From IMG/VR virus record IMGVR_UViG_3300036888_000014, positions 1 to 47,710 of that record: a stretch of 47,710 nt of DNA, one strand, 5' to 3'. Source of the stretch: a virus. The translations under genes were made by a program, and so were the position numbers. Below are positions 5,898 to 47,350 of this stretch, one piece after another (the stretch's first letter is position 1; each line of letters opens with the position of its first letter). The notes beneath the pieces are model-generated. The model was given only the letters and a program-made list of their open reading frames with translations, did no database searches and was not told where the DNA came from.

Positions 5898-8462
5898 ATG
5901 CCCACCTTCCCTTACGCCTACGTCGTGAACAGCGGCGCCTCCACGGTCACGAAGATCAACCTGAGCACGTTCGCGACAGTGGGGAGCGCCATTGCGGTGG
6001 GCAGCAACCCCTACCCCATCGCCGTTGATCCAGCGGGTGCCTATGCTTACGTCGTGAACCAGGGCGCCTACACGGTCACGAAGATCAACCTGAGCACGTT
6101 CGCGACAGTGGGCAGCGCACTGGCGGCGGTGACCAACCCCGTCAGCATCGCCGTTGATCCAGCGGGTGCTTTCGCCTACGTGACGAACTACAGCGGTAAC
6201 AAGGTCACGAAGATCAACCTGAGCACGTTCAATAACGTGGACGTCACTAACATCGCAGTGGGGACCTACCCCTACGGCATCGCCGTTGATCCAGCGGGTG
6301 CCTATGCTTACGTCGTGAACAACGGCGCCTCCACGGTCACGAAGATCAACCTGAGCACGTTCGCGACAGTGGGGAGCGCCATTGCGGTGGGCAGCAACCC
6401 CTACTCCATCGCCGTTGATCCAGCGGGTGCCTATGCTTACGTCGTGAACTACGGCGCCTCCACGGTCACGAAGATCAACCTGAGCACGTTCGCGACAGTG
6501 GGGAGCGCCATTGCGGTGGGCAGCAACCCCTACGGCATCGCCGTTGATCCAGCGGGTACCTATGCTTACGTGACGAACAGCGGCGCCTCCACGGTCACGA
6601 AGATCAACCTGAGCACGTTCCTGACAGTGGGCTCTGCTCTCGCAGTGGGGACCTACCCCTACGGCATCGCCGTTGATCCAGCGGGTACCTATGCTTACGT
6701 GACGAACTACGGCGATAACACGGTCACGAAGATCAACCTGAGCACGTTCCTGACAGTGGGCAGCGCACTGGCAGTGGGGGCCAACCCCTACGGCATCGCC
6801 ATCGGGCCGATTCCATATGGTCCTGCTGGCACCGTCTACTACGCGGTCCTAGCCGTTATAAGCGCCTCGGTGTCCGCGATTAGAGCGGTTCGCTCCCGAA
6901 AAGCGAAGCTCGTCGCTAGCACTGCATCCGTAGTTGCGCTGCAGATCAAGCGCGCTCGTAAGGCTGCGCTCTCGGTTGTATCCGCATCGAGCGCAAACCT
7001 AAAGCGAACCATCGGCAAAAGAGTACGCGCAAGTTCTGCGAGCAGCGTCTCGCTAGTCGTCAAGCGCGCTCGTAAGGCTGCGCTCTCGGTTGTATCCGCA
7101 TCGGTGGCAGCGATCGCAAGTCGTCGCTCACGGTTTATGAAGCTCATTGCATCCTCAGCGTCCTCGGCTGTTTTCCACTATCGACGAGCAAGGGTCGCGG
7201 TTCTGGGGGCAACGTCGGCCACGGTTTCAGCGATCACTAATGTCCGCTCGCGGGTAGTACGCATCATGGTTTCTTCAACTTCGGTAGCATCGATACGACG
7301 CGCCATCGGCAAGTACATCTCGATTGCCTCAGCGTCTGTATCTACGCTATCCAAGGCCATCCGTAAGGTTGTCGCAGCAAGCTCGACCAGCGTTACCGCT
7401 CTCAAGGTGAAGCGCGCTCGTCTGATCGCCATAGCGGCCTCCAGCGCCTCCGTAGCGGCTGCGATGCTCCACCGTGCACGACATGTCACCCTTGCCGCTG
7501 CGAGCGCCTCCGTGGCCGCTGTACGGTCACTACGAGCACGCTATATCTCTCTGCTTGCTAGCAGCGCTAGCTGGACGATCGTAGCTTGGAAACGTGCACG
7601 ACGGATCGCATTAGGCGCGGTCAGCGCGAGCGTGCCTACTGTCCTTCGCCGACGAGCCCGCCATATCGCTTTAGCGGTGACCTCCGCTACCGCCTCAACA
7701 ATCTCGAAGGTTATATCAAGGCTCCACTACATCACACTCGCTGTCACATCGGCTAGCGTATCTGCCGTAAGAATGCTCCGTAGTCGTCTCGTTGCCCTGG
7801 CAACCAACAGCGCAACGGTCGCAATGATTGCATATCAGCGAGCGCGAGTGGTCGCTCTAGCCGCATCATCGGCTATCGTCTCGACGATCTCCGCAGTCTC
7901 GTCAAGGATCAAGACTATCACCCTAGCAGTGACATCTGCGTCCATCGCCACGATTGCCAACCTTCGGGCTCGGCTGATCTCGGTCGCAGCAACTACGGTA
8001 TCCTCTCCACGCGTGAGGTTGATCCGCGCGCGGTTCGTGAAGATCGCCACCATCTCAGCATCCTTGGCACGGATTAGCATCTCCCGCCTATGGCGCATCA
8101 CTCTCACGGCTGGCAGTACCACCGTTGGGAGCGTCGCTATCCTGCGCGTATACATCGTTACTCTAGCAGTGCATTCGACTACGGCAGTCACCATCAGCAT
8201 CCAGCGAGCCCGAGTGATCGTTCTCGCTGTGACTTCGAGAATACTCACTGCGATCCCTAAGACCATTCGTAAGCTCGTCAACGCCATCTCAGTATCCAGA
8301 GCGAGGATCACTACGTTCATCCCCGTGCCTTTTGTACCTGGAGTGGTTACCACGGTCATCTCTATCGCAAAGTGGGTGACGAGCCTATTCTCAACCCCGA
8401 GTGCTCCCTCGACCACGATCTCCGAAACAGAGACAATAGAGACAGAGATCACCCCACCATGA
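5898..8462 (+). CDS. YVTN beta-propeller protein with long arginine-patterned 20-residue repeats
   Basis: An 854-residue two-part protein. Residues 6-303 are seven near-identical 43-44-residue units (A-Y-V-V-N-x-G-A-S-T-V-T-K-I-N-L-S-T-F), the YVTN/NHL-type propeller repeat; seven copies would close one complete propeller. Residues about 314-808 are about 25 degenerate 20-residue units of the form R-A-R-x-I-x-L-A-V-x-S-A-S-V-x-x-I. From about residue 273 to 841 there is not one Asp or Glu. The protein ends in an acidic tail (S-E-T-E-T-I-E-T-E). Propellers of this kind often bind surfaces or ligands, so an adsorption or virion-surface role is plausible, but it lies among head and connector genes. 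No promoter box or Shine-Dalgarno site is evident at the ATG. Its stop overlaps the next ATG (ATGA). Confidence 0.75.
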   Translation: MPTFPYAYVVNSGASTVTKINLSTFATVGSAIAVGSNPYPIAVDPAGAYAYVVNQGAYTVTKINLSTFATVGSALAAVTNPVSIAVDPAGAFAYVTNYSGNKVTKINLSTFNNVDVTNIAVGTYPYGIAVDPAGAYAYVVNNGASTVTKINLSTFATVGSAIAVGSNPYSIAVDPAGAYAYVVNYGASTVTKINLSTFATVGSAIAVGSNPYGIAVDPAGTYAYVTNSGASTVTKINLSTFLTVGSALAVGTYPYGIAVDPAGTYAYVTNYGDNTVTKINLSTFLTVGSALAVGANPYGIAIGPIPYGPAGTVYYAVLAVISASVSAIRAVRSRKAKLVASTASVVALQIKRARKAALSVVSASSANLKRTIGKRVRASSASSVSLVVKRARKAALSVVSASVAAIASRRSRFMKLIASSASSAVFHYRRARVAVLGATSATVSAITNVRSRVVRIMVSSTSVASIRRAIGKYISIASASVSTLSKAIRKVVAASSTSVTALKVKRARLIAIAASSASVAAAMLHRARHVTLAAASASVAAVRSLRARYISLLASSASWTIVAWKRARRIALGAVSASVPTVLRRRARHIALAVTSATASTISKVISRLHYITLAVTSASVSAVRMLRSRLVALATNSATVAMIAYQRARVVALAASSAIVSTISAVSSRIKTITLAVTSASIATIANLRARLISVAATTVSSPRVRLIRARFVKIATISASLARISISRLWRITLTAGSTTVGSVAILRVYIVTLAVHSTTAVTISIQRARVIVLAVTSRILTAIPKTIRKLVNAISVSRARITTFIPVPFVPGVVTTVISIAKWVTSLFSTPSAPSTTISETETIETEITPP
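5913..6806 (+). repeat. Seven tandem ~129-bp repeats encoding propeller blades
   Basis: The unit is 129 bp, with one copy of 132 bp. Stretches such as GCCGTTGATCCAGCGGG and AAGATCAACCTGAGCACGTT recur base for base, including third codon positions. That means recent duplication or gene conversion, not old divergence. Blade 3 is the most divergent. Confidence 0.9.
6837..8320 (+). repeat. About 25 degenerate ~60-bp repeats encoding a 20-residue unit
   Basis: The encoded period is mostly 20 residues (occasionally 18 or 22), each unit starting with R-A-R, R-S-R or a variant. The DNA copies are much more diverged than the propeller repeats. One near-exact DNA duplication is visible: the segment encoding K-R-A-R-K-A-A-L-S-V-V-S-A-S appears near 6949 and again near 7060. 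Confidence 0.8.
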
Positions 8463-43879: not shown

Positions 43880-43975
43880 CTTCGACCTGGCAAGAGCGCG
43901 CCACGCTGGGATCGGCACCCCTCATCGCGAGGGTACTCCGAAGTATATTCGCTTCAGCAGCGCACTCCCGCCAGA
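43880..43975 (+). repeat. 96-bp exact direct repeat, copy 1 (structured module)
   Basis: Identical over 96 bases to 44010-44105. It folds as a closed unit: CTGGC (43887) with GCCAG (43970), GAG-C-GCGC (43894) with GCGC-A-CTC (43960), GCTG (43905) with CAGC (43955), and two inner hairpins ACCC-C-TC/GAGGGT and CGAA/TTCG. The repeat edges coincide closely with the closing helix. Confidence 0.85.
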
Positions 43976-44009
43976 TAGTAACGGAAACAGAGCCGCCCTC
44001 GTCGCTTCC

Positions 44010-44105
44010 CTTCGACCTGGCAAGAGCGCGCCACGCTGGGATCGGCACCCCTCATCGCGAGGGTACTCCGAAGTATATTCGCTTCAGCAGCGCACTCCCG
44101 CCAGA
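44010..44105 (+). repeat. 96-bp exact direct repeat, copy 2 (structured module)
   Basis: Second copy of the module, 130 bp downstream of copy 1, separated by a 34-base linker. There is not one base difference between the copies, so the duplication is recent or kept by conversion. Confidence 0.85.
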
Positions 44106-44368
44106 CAGGTGCATGGGTGCCCGCAGTAAGCCGCTGAACCTTCGGTCAGCGGGGCACGTTCAGCAGTCGCGCTGAGTGACCTCCACAGGGCTCCCAACGG
44201 TTAGCGCTCGGCCCATGCATCTCTCTGGCGGTATGTCTAGCTGGCGCTAGCCAGCGATATCAAAGGCTTGGTCAATCAACAGGTAAGAGCGCAGGATCAA
44301 GACGAAAGTCATGGACAGTTCCGAGTTAGCTGCGCCGCCAAGCTACCGCCTTATTAGGAGGCGCGACA

Positions 44369-44587
44369 ATGCGCGAGTACACCATCTTTGAGGCAGCGGA
44401 CCTTGCGAACGAGATCGCTGATCGGATCAGCGAAGAGGTCGTTCACGAGTTCGACTTGCTGAACAACCTCGACATCAGCGACGACACCGACTACCCGTCC
44501 GAAGTCGATCGCAACGCGTCTGACAACTTCAACCGCGTGCTTGACGCTCTGAGCTTGGCGAAGAAGGTCTTCGACATCCTCGTCTAG
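44369..44587 (+). CDS. Small acidic protein, 72 residues
   Basis: Read from TTATTAGGAGG eight bases before the ATG. All helical and acidic (F-E-A-A-D-L-A-N-E-I-A-D-R-I-S-E-E-V, then L-D-A-L-S-L-A-K-K-V-F-D-I-L-V). First gene of the right-arm block. Function unknown. Confidence 0.65.
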   Translation: MREYTIFEAADLANEIADRISEEVVHEFDLLNNLDISDDTDYPSEVDRNASDNFNRVLDALSLAKKVFDILV

Positions 44588-44594
44588 ACGAGGG

Positions 44595-44641
44595 CAGCGG
44601 CTTCAGCCGCTGTAAGTCACGGCTCAGTCCCAAGTCTGAGC
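44595..44641 (+). promoter_or_regulatory. Double-hairpin leader element, copy A (loop TCCCAAGT)
   Basis: Hairpin 1: CAGCGGC-TTCA-GCCGCTG (44595-44612). Then TAAGTCAC. Hairpin 2: GCTCAG-TCCCAAGT-CTGAGC (44622-44641). A Shine-Dalgarno site AGGAGA and the ATG at 44658 follow. The same plan recurs before 45863 and 46842. Confidence 0.65.
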
Positions 44642-44657
44642 ATCACAGGAGATCGAC

Positions 44658-44921
44658 ATGGCTAAGAACCTTTGTGGCAAGACGCGACCGATCACTGACC
44701 CGTACGAGACGTGGAGCGATGGTACAGGCTGGCATTGGCACGTACTCAAGAAGTACAGCGCGAATGACGATGCGCCCTACGTTCGGTGGTTCTGCTTCGT
44801 CACTTCGCCGTATTGCCCCGATGGCGAGTACGGCGACACATACGTCGAAGAGATCAAGCGTTACGCGCGGCGCGTCCTCTCTTCGCAGGAACGCGCTCAG
44901 TTGAACGGCGATCCTCTCTAG
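44658..44921 (+). CDS. Hypothetical protein, 87 residues
   Basis: Aromatic-rich (G-W-H-W-H-V-L-K-K-Y-S, V-R-W-F-C-F-V-T-S-P-Y-C) with a helical end (V-E-E-I-K-R-Y-A-R-R-V-L). Read behind leader element A and an AGGAGA site. Not recognised. Confidence 0.65.
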   Translation: MAKNLCGKTRPITDPYETWSDGTGWHWHVLKKYSANDDAPYVRWFCFVTSPYCPDGEYGDTYVEEIKRYARRVLSSQERAQLNGDPL

Positions 44922-44932
44922 CTCGCAGAGCA

Positions 44933-44952
44933 CAACGACCTTCGGGTCGTTG
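44933..44952 (+). terminator. UUCG-tetraloop hairpin after the gene at 44658
   Basis: CAACGACC-TTCG-GGTCGTTG, a perfect 8-bp stem with the extra-stable UUCG loop. No T-tract. It may end or protect the upstream mRNA. Confidence 0.5.
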
Positions 44953-45017
44953 GAATGCGGCATGCTGGTTGCAAGCCCAGCTACACGTCCTGCGGGACGG
45001 CGCTCGCAAGCACAACT

Positions 45018-45039
45018 CCCGCCCCCACTCGGGGGCGGG
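45018..45039 (+). terminator. Very GC-rich hairpin before the gene at 45057
   Basis: CCCGCCCCC-ACTC-GGGGGCGGG, a perfect 9-bp stem, followed by ATCGC and then a TAGACT promoter box. It probably isolates the downstream leaderless gene from upstream transcription. Confidence 0.55.
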
Positions 45040-45044
45040 ATCGC

Positions 45045-45050
45045 TAGACT
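45045..45050 (+). promoter_or_regulatory. -10 box TAGACT, leaderless promoter
   Basis: TAGACT ends six bases before the ATG at 45057. It is the only such box I see in the right-arm block. Confidence 0.6.
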
Positions 45051-45056
45051 ATAGGA

Positions 45057-45335
45057 ATGGAGTACATGATGTACAAGACTACTAAGGCGCTAGCCGCTGC
45101 GGCTGGCAAAGGCATCTACGTCAACGCGCTAGGTCAGACTTCGCTGGTCCCGCGCGACGGTTACACGCTCGCAACGTCGAGCGTTCCTGAGTGCGACGCG
45201 TCCCCTGACGCGTGGGCACTCAATCACTTTGTCAGCTACCCTGAGCGCGATGAAGACGGTAACCCTCTCTGCGCCGAGTGCGGCGCGGATCATGGTATCG
45301 CGGCATACCGTCGTCCCTGGTGTAGCCAGCGATGA
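45057..45335 (+). CDS. Hypothetical protein with C-terminal zinc pair
   Basis: 92 residues. N-terminus Ala/Lys-rich and helical. The C-terminal end has L-C-A-E-C-G-A-D-H-G and a final W-C-S-Q-R. An in-frame ATG also lies at 45066, but 45057 fits the promoter box. Function unknown. Confidence 0.6.
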   Translation: MEYMMYKTTKALAAAAGKGIYVNALGQTSLVPRDGYTLATSSVPECDASPDAWALNHFVSYPERDEDGNPLCAECGADHGIAAYRRPWCSQR

Positions 45336-45529
45336 CGTACCGCAAAACACGATGCTGGGTCTGCAAGGGCGTAGGCCACTCTCAACTCGGCTATCCTTGC
45401 GACTGGTGCCACGGTAGCGGATGGATCATCGAGCACTATCGGCACCGTACCTTCGGACGTTGGCTTGGCGACATCTGCGGTAACGCTTACGTCGCCATCA
45501 TCAACTGGTTGGATCACGAGGAGAACTAA
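45332..45529 (+). CDS. Small DnaJ-type zinc-finger protein, 65 residues
   Basis: ATGA overlap with the previous gene. C-W-V-C-K-G-V-G-H and C-D-W-C-H-G-S-G-W are the two halves of a DnaJ-like zinc centre (CxxCxGxG). A related motif sits in the capsid protease. An aromatic helical C-terminus follows. Function unknown. Confidence 0.65.
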   Translation: MTYRKTRCWVCKGVGHSQLGYPCDWCHGSGWIIEHYRHRTFGRWLGDICGNAYVAIINWLDHEEN

Positions 45530-45530
45530 C

Positions 45531-45764
45531 ATGGCAGTCACCACTCTGCAGCGCGAGGCGCTGCGCGCACGTCACGGCACGACGTTTTGGTTGCGTCGAT
45601 ACGGATTCGATCGTATCGGCAACTGTCGCAAGGCGCAGTGGACGGCCACTGACGAGTTCGGCTTCAAGGTCGCCAACAGCGGCTACACTCTCAACGAGTT
45701 GAAGTCGTACCTCCGTCTGCGGTTCGGTCGCGATATCTCGTTCAACGTCCACGTCATCTGGTAA
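45531..45764 (+). CDS. Hypothetical protein, 77 residues
   Basis: ATG at 45531 behind a GAGGAG site. Basic protein with W-L-R-R-Y-G-F-D-R-I-G-N-C-R-K and L-N-E-L-K-S-Y-L-R-L-R-F. Not recognised. Confidence 0.6.
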   Translation: MAVTTLQREALRARHGTTFWLRRYGFDRIGNCRKAQWTATDEFGFKVANSGYTLNELKSYLRLRFGRDISFNVHVIW

Positions 45765-45789
45765 AAACTTACACCGACCCTGACGAGGG

Positions 45790-45843
45790 CGCGTCGCTTA
45801 TATCAGCGACGCGTAAGTCACACGAGCGGTCCCAAGTCCGCTC
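45790..45843 (+). promoter_or_regulatory. Double-hairpin leader element, copy B (loop TCCCAAGT)
   Basis: Hairpin 1: CGCGTCGCT-TATATC-AGCGACGCG (45790-45813). Then TAAGTCAC. Hairpin 2: GAGCGG-TCCCAAGT-CCGCTC (45824-45843). TTATTAGGAGA and the ATG at 45863 follow. Loop and spacer match copy A while both stems differ in sequence but stay paired. Confidence 0.7.
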
Positions 45844-45862
45844 ACTTTATTAGGAGATACAC

Positions 45863-46459
45863 ATGGCTGACACTCTGATCGAGCGCTTCCGCACATGGCG
45901 GGCGCGCAATCCTCGCGGCATCTTCGCCAAGACCGTTGACATCCGTTGCGAACCAACGGCTGACGTCCCGTCGTTCACGCTGACCACGCGCTGCGATTCG
46001 CACATCATCGCTGCGCTCGATGGCAAGAGCGACCCACCCTGCGGAGCAATCCGCTTCCGCGCTAGCGCTGGCTACTGCAACGCGTGCGAAGACGACTTCG
46101 AAGCCGCGCTAGACAATATCCTCCTCGACGGCTGGGCTGACGGGCTCAGTGTTTCGCCATTCGGCAGAACTGTTCGCGAGGCGATCATCGAAGACGCCGC
46201 TACCGATCCTGCTTACAAGGCTGGGTACGTCGCAGCGCTGCAGGACGATCTCGACGCGGTGTTCGCCGATATCGCGTATCAGGCAGCGCATCGCTACTGC
46301 GACCCGTACTTCCACAGCGACGATGGGCGCTGGCAGGAGATTCTCGACTGCCCGAACTGCCACGGCAACCACGCGATCGACTTCTGCGATGCGCCCGATG
46401 CTGAGGAGCGCGCGTACTACGCTCGCGAAGACGACTACAACGAAGAGCGTGGCTACTAG
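45863..46459 (+). CDS. Hypothetical protein with Cys pairs, 198 residues
   Basis: Contains G-Y-C-N-A-C-E-D-D near residue 73 and I-L-D-C-P-N-C-H-G-N-H near residue 160, which may form zinc sites. The C-terminus is acidic and Tyr-rich (Y-A-R-E-D-D-Y-N-E-E). Read behind leader B. Not recognised. Confidence 0.65.
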   Translation: MADTLIERFRTWRARNPRGIFAKTVDIRCEPTADVPSFTLTTRCDSHIIAALDGKSDPPCGAIRFRASAGYCNACEDDFEAALDNILLDGWADGLSVSPFGRTVREAIIEDAATDPAYKAGYVAALQDDLDAVFADIAYQAAHRYCDPYFHSDDGRWQEILDCPNCHGNHAIDFCDAPDAEERAYYAREDDYNEERGY

Positions 46460-46732
46460 ATGGACCCGACTGAGATTCGCAACGAACTTCGCAACCACCT
46501 TCGCGAATGCGCACGGGCCGCGTACGAAGCGTCGCAACAGTCACCCGCTGGCGAGAAGCTCGCTGGCATCGAATATGTATGCGATGAACTCGCTGCATAT
46601 GCGTACGCGCTCGGGTACAACGCGGCTCGCGATGACACGCTGGAGCGTGAACTACAGCGCGAACCGCGCTGGAACGATCAATGCGACTGCGCTAACACAC
46701 AAGACCCCTACGGCATTACCAACGAAGAGTAA
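46460..46732 (+). CDS. Hypothetical helical protein, 90 residues
   Basis: ATG directly follows the previous stop. Helical (E-I-R-N-E-L-R-N-H-L-R-E-C-A-R-A-A-Y-E-A). C-D-C-A-N near the end. Not recognised. Confidence 0.6.
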   Translation: MDPTEIRNELRNHLRECARAAYEASQQSPAGEKLAGIEYVCDELAAYAYALGYNAARDDTLERELQREPRWNDQCDCANTQDPYGITNEE

Positions 46733-46733
46733 G

Positions 46734-46811
46734 CCTGATCCACGATCAGGCGAGTAGAGGGCGCGGCACAACGCGTGCCGCGTAATACACACACTCGGTC
46801 CCAAGTCCGAG
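46734..46811 (+). promoter_or_regulatory. Leader element, copy C (loop TCCCAAGT)
   Basis: A preceding hairpin CCTGATC-CAC-GATCAGG (46734-46750), then hairpin 1 CGCGGCA/TGCCGCG (46762-46782), TAATACAC, and hairpin 2 CTCGG-TCCCAAGT-CCGAG (46794-46811). A tandem ACATCTAAAG pair (46812-46831) and the GGAGG site of the ATG at 46842 follow. Confidence 0.65.
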
Positions 46812-46841
46812 ACATCTAAAGACATCTAAAGGAGGCACATC

Positions 46842-47264
46842 ATGTCCCAATACGACACTGCCCAGCGTCCACCAATCAGCCATGGTATCAAGTCGTGGTA
46901 CGTCGAGCTTCACGCTACTGGCTTCGCCGACTGCCACGATCGAAAATACATCGTCTATGTGCGGTGTGCCTGTGGAGAAAGTCTCTCTCAGGTTTGCGAC
47001 CGCATCGCTGACGATGGTTGGAACGAAGCATGCGCGATCATCTGGCAGCACGAACAAGGTGTGCTGCATGAGGCACAAGGCTTCGAGGCATTCGTTAGTG
47101 CGCCGAACCCGAACGTGCCGCAGCAAAAGATCGCCGATCTTCGCGAGGAGGTTGAGGTCACGGACTTCGCGTTGCGGAAGGTTTCGACAGAGATATGGGG
47201 ACCAACGATCCGCGAGGCCGCAGCGTACGCGCGGCTCGACGCGCAACTCAACGCACTACGATAG
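46842..47264 (+). CDS. Hypothetical protein, 140 residues
   Basis: N-terminal half has strands W-Y-V-E-L-H-A-T-G-F and Y-I-V-Y-V-R-C-A-C-G-E-S. The C-terminal half is helical (Q-K-I-A-D-L-R-E-E-V-E-V). A strong GGAGG site and leader C precede it. Not recognised. Confidence 0.65.
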   Translation: MSQYDTAQRPPISHGIKSWYVELHATGFADCHDRKYIVYVRCACGESLSQVCDRIADDGWNEACAIIWQHEQGVLHEAQGFEAFVSAPNPNVPQQKIADLREEVEVTDFALRKVSTEIWGPTIREAAAYARLDAQLNALR

Positions 47265-47275
47265 GCAATCGTGCG

Positions 47276-47314
47276 GCGGCGCTACGTCAGCGCCGCGTCC
47301 GCTCATCGAAGCGG
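47276..47314 (+). promoter_or_regulatory. Double-hairpin leader, copy F with a different loop
   Basis: Hairpin 1: GCGGCGCT-ACGTC-AGCGCCGC (47276-47296). Hairpin 2: CCGCT-CATCGA-AGCGG (47299-47314). The plan is the same as in copies A to C, but the second loop is CATCGA and not TCCCAAGT. A GTCG/CGAC stem directly before the GGAGG site may affect ribosome access. Confidence 0.5.
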
Positions 47315-47350
47315 TTAGGGCGTCGCCTACATTCGACGGAGGTAACACAT

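Follow-up and report, generated by a model that had tools for sequence, protein, structure and literature searches.

Type-P5 twisters (Rfam family RF02684, reviewed in PMC5408937) are a form of the twister ribozymes, which are structurally among the best studied of all self-cleaving RNAs. Twisters are often found close to hammerhead ribozymes, and both kinds close to genes of Mu-like phages, for a reason that is stated to be unknown (PMC10085705). Here we describe a 47.7-kb stretch of viral DNA, the IMG/VR virus record IMGVR_UViG_3300036888_000014 (hereafter the window), whose genes include those for tail proteins, an endolysin, a DNA polymerase and a helicase. The structured leaders that precede its genes at 44658, 45863 and 46842 are, judged by sequence and predicted fold, type-P5 twister self-cleaving ribozymes and so members of a known family. 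Together with a further copy they form an array in which ribozymes lie between the stop codon of one gene and the Shine-Dalgarno (SD) site of the next. Type-P5 twisters placed in this way probably cut rightward phage operon RNA at gene junctions into insulated units of one or few genes. The array of stop codon, ribozyme and SD site gives the question of why twisters cluster with phage genes a concrete and testable answer, namely messenger RNA (mRNA) punctuation and insulation.

With the described type-P5 twisters the window elements share the sequence, the stems P1, P2 and P4, the pseudoknots T1 and T2, the permuted ends and the cleavage dinucleotide. They differ from what is known of twisters in phage surroundings in that PMC10085705 holds no arrays of up to 20 copies filling the junctions between stop codon and SD site. 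No account of such large arrays, or of the fit between stop, ribozyme and SD site, came up in a literature search that did not extend to the founding twister papers; the family is known, and its use as junction punctuation is undescribed in the literature searched. Self-cleaving ribozymes between the genes of a polycistronic RNA, some of them a few nucleotides ahead of a start codon, have been described among the hammerheads, including HHphage of the haloviruses HF1 and HF2: tandem copies around ardA (a triplet in A. tumefaciens) cut in vivo, and a halovirus hammerhead that lies 13 nt ahead of the start of a helicase gene has a 5′ end mapped to its cut (PMC3088659). These are, however, of another ribozyme class, come in one to three copies and show no systematic use at successive junctions.

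A likeness in layout exists with the engineered insulator RiboJ, in whose manner the phage array may work without being a member of that group. RiboJ leaves a hairpin before the ribosome binding site, and raises mRNA about 2-fold and protein 2-10-fold (PMC6206723). In both cases a ribozyme is followed by a hairpin that stays, or in the window would stay, on the 5′ end of the mRNA ahead of the ribosome site, the hairpin in the window being P4, 3′ of the cut. RiboJ, however, is hammerhead-derived and stands after a promoter, whereas the phage twisters are natural, lie between genes and would also give the upstream mRNA a terminal hairpin. The theta ribozymes of gut phages are likewise small phage ribozymes with a proposed role in RNA processing, in which they are proposed to replace host RNases (PMC10879173), but they have the fold of the hepatitis delta virus ribozyme, adjoin tRNA genes and are proposed to act on tRNA 3′ trailers rather than mRNA junctions. 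Finally, the start-associated sequences (SAS) and extended SAS (ESAS) of cluster K mycobacteriophages are also repeated elements directly ahead of the starts of many unrelated phage genes. An initial annotation of the window, made from the sequence alone, had seen a resemblance to them, which does not hold up. SAS is a fixed 13-base sequence and ESAS consists of 17-bp imperfect inverted repeats with a consensus (PMC3203893); the SAS motif GGGATAGGAGCCC has no match in the window even when 2 mismatches are allowed, and instead of 17-bp repeats of common sequence the window has stems, P1 among them, that vary in sequence from copy to copy.

Four copies in the window match RF02684 with 50.4-52.9 bits (E 1e-7 to 1e-8), exceeding its gathering score of 37.6 bits by 13-15 bits, and all four span the full model, 1-58, untruncated. 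From 5′ to 3′ the element consists of the first P2 strand, L1, the P1 hairpin, the cleavage site, the second P2 strand, L2, and P4 with its loop L4; the permuted order of L1, P1 hairpin, cut, P2 and P4 recurs in all copies, with the ends at P5 and P1 closed by a loop. The parts that had been picked out from the sequence fit this scheme: the GC-rich hairpin is P1, the second hairpin is P4, the invariant 8-base loop TCCCAAGT is L4, and the TAAGTCAC-like spacer holds the U|A cleavage site. All of these were found in the three double-hairpin leaders, together with the SD sites and ATGs, and the second stems are indeed GCTCAG/CTGAGC, GAGCGG/CCGCTC and CTCGG/CCGAG, bearing out both the covariation within one genome and the structured RNA leader. 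The search for further copies that had been suggested yielded the fourth one in the window and the motif in dozens of viral records. Some corrections are needed. The leaders are real, but the element starts earlier than had been thought: the strand before the first hairpin, GAC-GAGGG or GTA-GAGGG, belongs to it, so copy A begins at 44587 and not at 44595. The loop TCCCAAGT occurs three times in the 47.7 kb (44628-44635, 45830-45837 and 46799-46806) against a chance expectation of 0.71, but it is invariant just among those three leaders; the fourth copy, at 44924-44980, carries the loop TTGCAAGC and GAGCA in place of GAGGG.

The four copies, which we call A to D, all lie on the plus strand, and their cleavage sites are predictions. 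Ribozyme A (44587-44639; 52.9 bits with RF02684, 52.6-56.1 bits with a covariance model of our own) has the P2 5′ strand GAC at 44587-44589, L1 GAGGG at 44590-44594, the P1 hairpin at 44595-44612, a predicted cut at U44613|A44614, and P4 at 44622-44627/44636-44641 around L4. Ribozyme B (44924-44980; 52.4 bits), which the initial annotation missed, has P2 CGCA at 44924-44927, L1 GAGCA at 44928-44932, P1 at 44933-44952, a predicted cut at G44953|A44954, and P4 at 44964-44968/44977-44981, with L4 at 44969-44976. In ribozyme C (45782-45841; 50.4 bits) P2 GAC lies at 45782-45784, L1 GAGGG at 45785-45789, P1 at 45790-45813, the predicted cut at U45814|A45815 and P4 at 45824-45829/45838-45843. Ribozyme D (46753-46810; 50.7 bits, 63.5 bits with our model) comprises P2 GTA at 46754-46756, L1 GAGGG at 46757-46761, P1 at 46762-46782, the predicted cut U46783|A46784 and P4 at 46794-46798/46807-46811. 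The cleavage site reads UAA, or GAA in copy B. L4 has the form U CCC AA GU, in which CCC pairs with GGG of L1 (T1) and GU with AC of the short L2, which carries the other T2 strand (T2). In copy B the loop is U UGC AA GC and both pseudoknots are changed in a compensatory way, T1 to GCA:UGC and T2, with GC in L2, to GC:GC.

The conservation of these parts was followed well beyond the window. Our covariance model, built from 36 copies, gave 178 matches in 32 sources, and covariation was computed on 147 distinct aligned copies over 18 pairs of P1, P2, P4 and T1; in making the alignment, P1, P2 and P4 were fitted to the structure, but T1 and T2 played no part in the fit. Standard pairs fill 97.1% of the pair cells in these copies, compared with 64.7% after shuffling and at most 52.5% after sliding; both sides change in 17 of the 18 pairs, and none of 500 shuffles reached the observed covariation score. 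T1 is Watson-Crick paired in 145 of 147 copies, as GGG:CCC, GGA:UCC, GAG:CUC, AGG:CCU, GCA:UGC or CGG:CCG. Among the 31 copies with a T1 other than GGG:CCC, 29 are compensated (shuffle mean 9.5; none of 10,000 shuffles reached 29). T2 is paired in 138 of 147 copies against a shuffled mean of 67, again with compensatory changes, including those of window copy B.

The catalytic core is conserved as well. The A after the cut is invariant (147/147), and the first G of GAGGG, which by our own mapping is the active-site G named G48 in env22 and G45 in rice (PMC5408937), is kept in 149 of 150 copies. Before the cut stands U in 144 of 147 copies, including A, C and D of the window, while B has G; this base is non-conserved and replaceable in vitro (PMC5408937). 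The GCA:UGC subtype to which copy B belongs is present in 16 viral stretches besides the window (L127, L212-L226), with U, C, G or A before the cut. P1 directly adjoins the cleavage nucleotide in 145 of 147 copies and is a stable hairpin, with a median folding energy of -13 kcal/mol compared with -4 kcal/mol for shuffled sequences. The pairwise identity of its stems among the window copies is 0.13-0.75. P1 is followed by TAA or GAA and then by P2, with no T-run, which is not the layout of an intrinsic terminator; of the four P4 hairpins a single one (45824-45843) is flagged as terminator-like on the plus strand.

Where the ribozymes sit relative to genes was measured at 23 loci, all selected because they hold several copies and together containing 162, by taking the nearest stop codon that ends an open reading frame (ORF) and the next SD-preceded start, with random positions on the same strand as control. 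Gene positions were not built into this sample, because the pattern by which the records were found holds no gene signal. The copies sit strictly at junctions. In 76.5% of cases, against 5.9% for random positions, a stop codon falls at -5 to +5 nt relative to the base with which the ribozyme begins, and it often lies within P2: in 28 cases the TAG is at offset -2, so that the junction reads TAGCAGAGGG. On the other side, an SD site and start follow 13-45 nt past P4 in 90.7% (random 12.6%), and the stop criterion, widened to -5 to +25, and the start criterion hold jointly in 78%, compared with 2.3%. Seen from the gaps, 89 of the 103 same-strand gaps of 60-160 nt within arrays hold a ribozyme. 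Exactly one ORF is enclosed by neighbouring ribozymes in 72 of 139 cases overall and in 12 of 13 in one array (G035). In a set found through the GCA:UGC motif alone, 13 of 18 distinct copies start no more than 3 nt from the end of a stop codon and 15 within -2 to +8.

The genes themselves have little in common. The 158 downstream proteins fall into 130 clusters, mostly unrelated, so what the ribozyme serves is the junction, whichever gene follows. Where arrays share gene families, the neighbour on the other side of the ribozyme differs in 44 of 45 comparisons. As to which neighbour the ribozyme travels with, in one related pair of arrays (L184 and L186) copies after an orthologous gene are 0.94-1.0 alike, whereas copies that precede such a gene reach 0.82-0.95, with a single shared case at 0.98; taken across every array, however, the excess is small, 0.033 against 0.022, and favours neither neighbour clearly.

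The motif recurs in dozens of viral records. A loose pattern scan of viral sequences, permissive because of its two variable gaps, returned 120 stretches, mostly probably chance hits, which were used only if they passed a structural filter or matched Rfam. Whole-record searches with RF02684 then matched 34 of 38 viral records in a first set, against 0 of 14 control genomes, and 22 of 29 records in a second set, 20 of them viral, giving 54 viral records overall. The largest arrays hold 20 (G023), 15 (G011), 14 (G018 and G035), 11 (G033) and 10 copies (G002), and at each of the 23 loci read in detail all copies, 162 in total, are on one strand. Among named phages there was no near match to the window or to the arrays L183, L185 and L193, and for L184 only a match of 79 bases. 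The Streptomyces phages BarryBee, Lannister and Bogota hold no copy, yet the window's DNA polymerase is 37% identical to the DnaE-like polymerases of Likavirus. Two bacterial metagenome-assembled genomes carry two copies each, a separate GTDB scan led to 3 loci, and in the family of the Oscillospiraceae assembly 4 of 298 genomes have a copy; with so few bacterial copies, the array is mainly a phage feature. On a 433-kb Oscillospiraceae contig (L203), type-P5 twisters lie on the minus strand at 7377-7428 and 7909-7959, one of them directly after a TAA stop and ahead of a helix-turn-helix gene that by our own reading of the protein resembles phage Cro; the region looks like the early region of a prophage, arranged in the same way.

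How such an array might work can be proposed in some detail. As the polycistronic RNA is synthesised, each ribozyme would fold into P1, P2, P4, T1 and T2 and cut just before the conserved A, on the 3′ side of the base that follows P1 (in most copies U), which would part two complete hairpins. The upstream mRNA would then end in the GC-rich P1 hairpin plus one nucleotide with a 2′,3′-cyclic phosphate, presumably a poor substrate for 3′ exonucleases; a 2′,3′-cyclic phosphate end is the known chemistry of the ribozyme reaction. The downstream mRNA would begin with 5′-OH-AA, followed by the P2 3′ strand, the P4 hairpin, the SD site and the ATG, and so carry a leader of uniform make with a hairpin at its 5′ end. 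Once cut, the two products would be joined just by P2 and the pseudoknot contacts and should separate. The array would in this way match, in natural form and without a protein, both the RiboJ insulator and the processing sites of RNase III. Cleavage does not require P1 (PMC5408937), and for this reason the upkeep of P1 as a covarying hairpin points to a further role, which fits a 3′ cap. A translational switch through masking of the SD site was also considered and found no support: the SD site is unpaired with a probability of 0.54 before and 0.50 after the cut (other starts 0.42), and since accessibility is similar with and without the 5′ half, such a switch is unlikely.

Taking this one step further, we lean towards the view that a class of tailed phages replaces the ribonuclease-dependent processing of operon RNA by a twister array at most junctions, so that each gene or small group of genes would have an mRNA of its own, with protected ends and a standard leader, to the likely benefit of the phage. 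The punctuation mark of stop codon, ribozyme and SD site may also make genes exchangeable as cassettes. If true, nature already uses a RiboJ-like design, and the arrays offer many natural parts for operon engineering.

Several points weigh against punctuation by cleavage. Ribozyme B has G ahead of its cut and is followed by an ATG only after 76 nt, with a strong hairpin in between, and its purpose may be a different one. About half of the neighbouring ribozymes enclose more than one gene, so the units are not monocistronic in the strict sense. In a further 25 copies the layout is less sharp, the stop criterion holding for 14, the start criterion for 19 and both for 11, though an SD-preceded start follows at 15-68 nt in 25 of 25. 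P1 could be kept for co-transcriptional folding instead of end protection, and cleavage itself is a prediction.

Other explanations of the array have to be judged against the same data. In engineered mRNAs, self-cleaving ribozymes commonly act as off-switches, and for many early phage genes a brief burst of expression is what is needed. The ribozymes might accordingly cut in order to destabilise or down-regulate, removing the 5′ end of the operon so that the mRNA decays gene by gene and expression is graded or timed. We consider this unlikely, as the cut always spares the SD site and the ORF, each new end bears a hairpin, the SD site is accessible before and after the cut, and expression is raised by RiboJ, whose layout is similar (PMC6206723). 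A selfish or recombinational element, with ribozyme boundaries that spread between genes or mark exchanged cassettes and with cleavage as a by-product, would account for the finding that shared gene families nearly always have a different neighbour across the ribozyme, and for the placing of arrays among small unrelated genes. It is nevertheless improbable. P1 identity is 0.49 within and 0.38 between arrays with the pairs kept, and copies that have diverged within an array yet keep their pairs are maintained by selection on structure; moreover, every copy is oriented like the genes around it and sits tightly between stop and SD site.

The initial annotation had favoured control of early translation by a phage or host protein that binds the leader, and a repeated structured leader just ahead of the starts of unrelated genes is indeed what SAS and ESAS would lead one to expect (PMC3203893). 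The window, however, has no SAS motif, and its conserved bases are accounted for by the twister fold: no protein is necessary to explain the conservation of the loop, because L4 pairs with L1 (T1) and L2 (T2) inside the ribozyme, and its changes go along with those of L1, for which a protein-binding site would have no need. This makes a protein-bound leader very improbable. Nor is it credible, save at the very faintest, that the elements are inactive relics of twisters that now serve as mere hairpins, such as signals for transcription to pause or terminate. Copy B deviates before the cut and one P4 hairpin is terminator-like, as relics might be; but core and pseudoknots are intact in the four window copies and nearly invariant in the 147, whereas in relics T1 and T2 should be the first parts to decay, and P1 has no T-run after it. 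Cleavage at the junctions into insulated units remains the reading we prefer.

The genes around the four window copies, all on the plus strand, illustrate the layout, with distances taken from the ORF list and the sequence. An ORF of 72 amino acids (44369-44587, no Pfam match) precedes ribozyme A, and the last base of its TAG stop is the first base of the ribozyme. Between A and B lies an ORF of 87 amino acids (44658-44921, no Pfam match), its ATG 18 nt past the Rfam end of A and its stop 2 nt ahead of B. The ORF after B (92 amino acids, 45057-45335) has its ATG 76 nt past the ribozyme, and the gap contains two extra hairpins: a strong GC hairpin at 45017-45040, without a T-run on the plus strand, and ahead of it a second, short one (ACGTCC-TGCG-GGACG). 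An ORF of 77 amino acids (45531-45764) stops 17 nt ahead of C; after C, at 21 nt, starts one of 198 amino acids (45863-46459, no Pfam match). A further ORF of 90 amino acids (46460-46732) stops 20 nt ahead of D, and the ATG of the ORF of 140 amino acids after D (46842-47264, no Pfam match) follows at 31 nt. Since the window array sits at the right end, it may continue with further copies past the end of the contig.

A leader at 47256-47350, ahead of a DUF932 gene, had been taken for a relative of the others and was rejected as a fifth copy. Its hairpins resemble P1 and P4 by eye but lack the twister core; there was no Rfam match at E<=1 and none to our own covariance model with filters off, and the folding energy is not unusual (z-score -0.72). 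L237 and L238, which encode the proteins closest to the DUF932 protein of the window (36% identity), have no twister match in the stretches examined. A family of about 301 amino acids that is DUF932-like by our own reading directly follows a twister in five other arrays (L181, L183, L187, L188 and L194), which recalls the window's DUF932 gene at the end of the array. Just ahead of the window array, a gap contains a 99-bp direct repeat, 99% identical, at 43880-43978 and 44010-44108 (130 bp from start to start), which is possibly regulatory.

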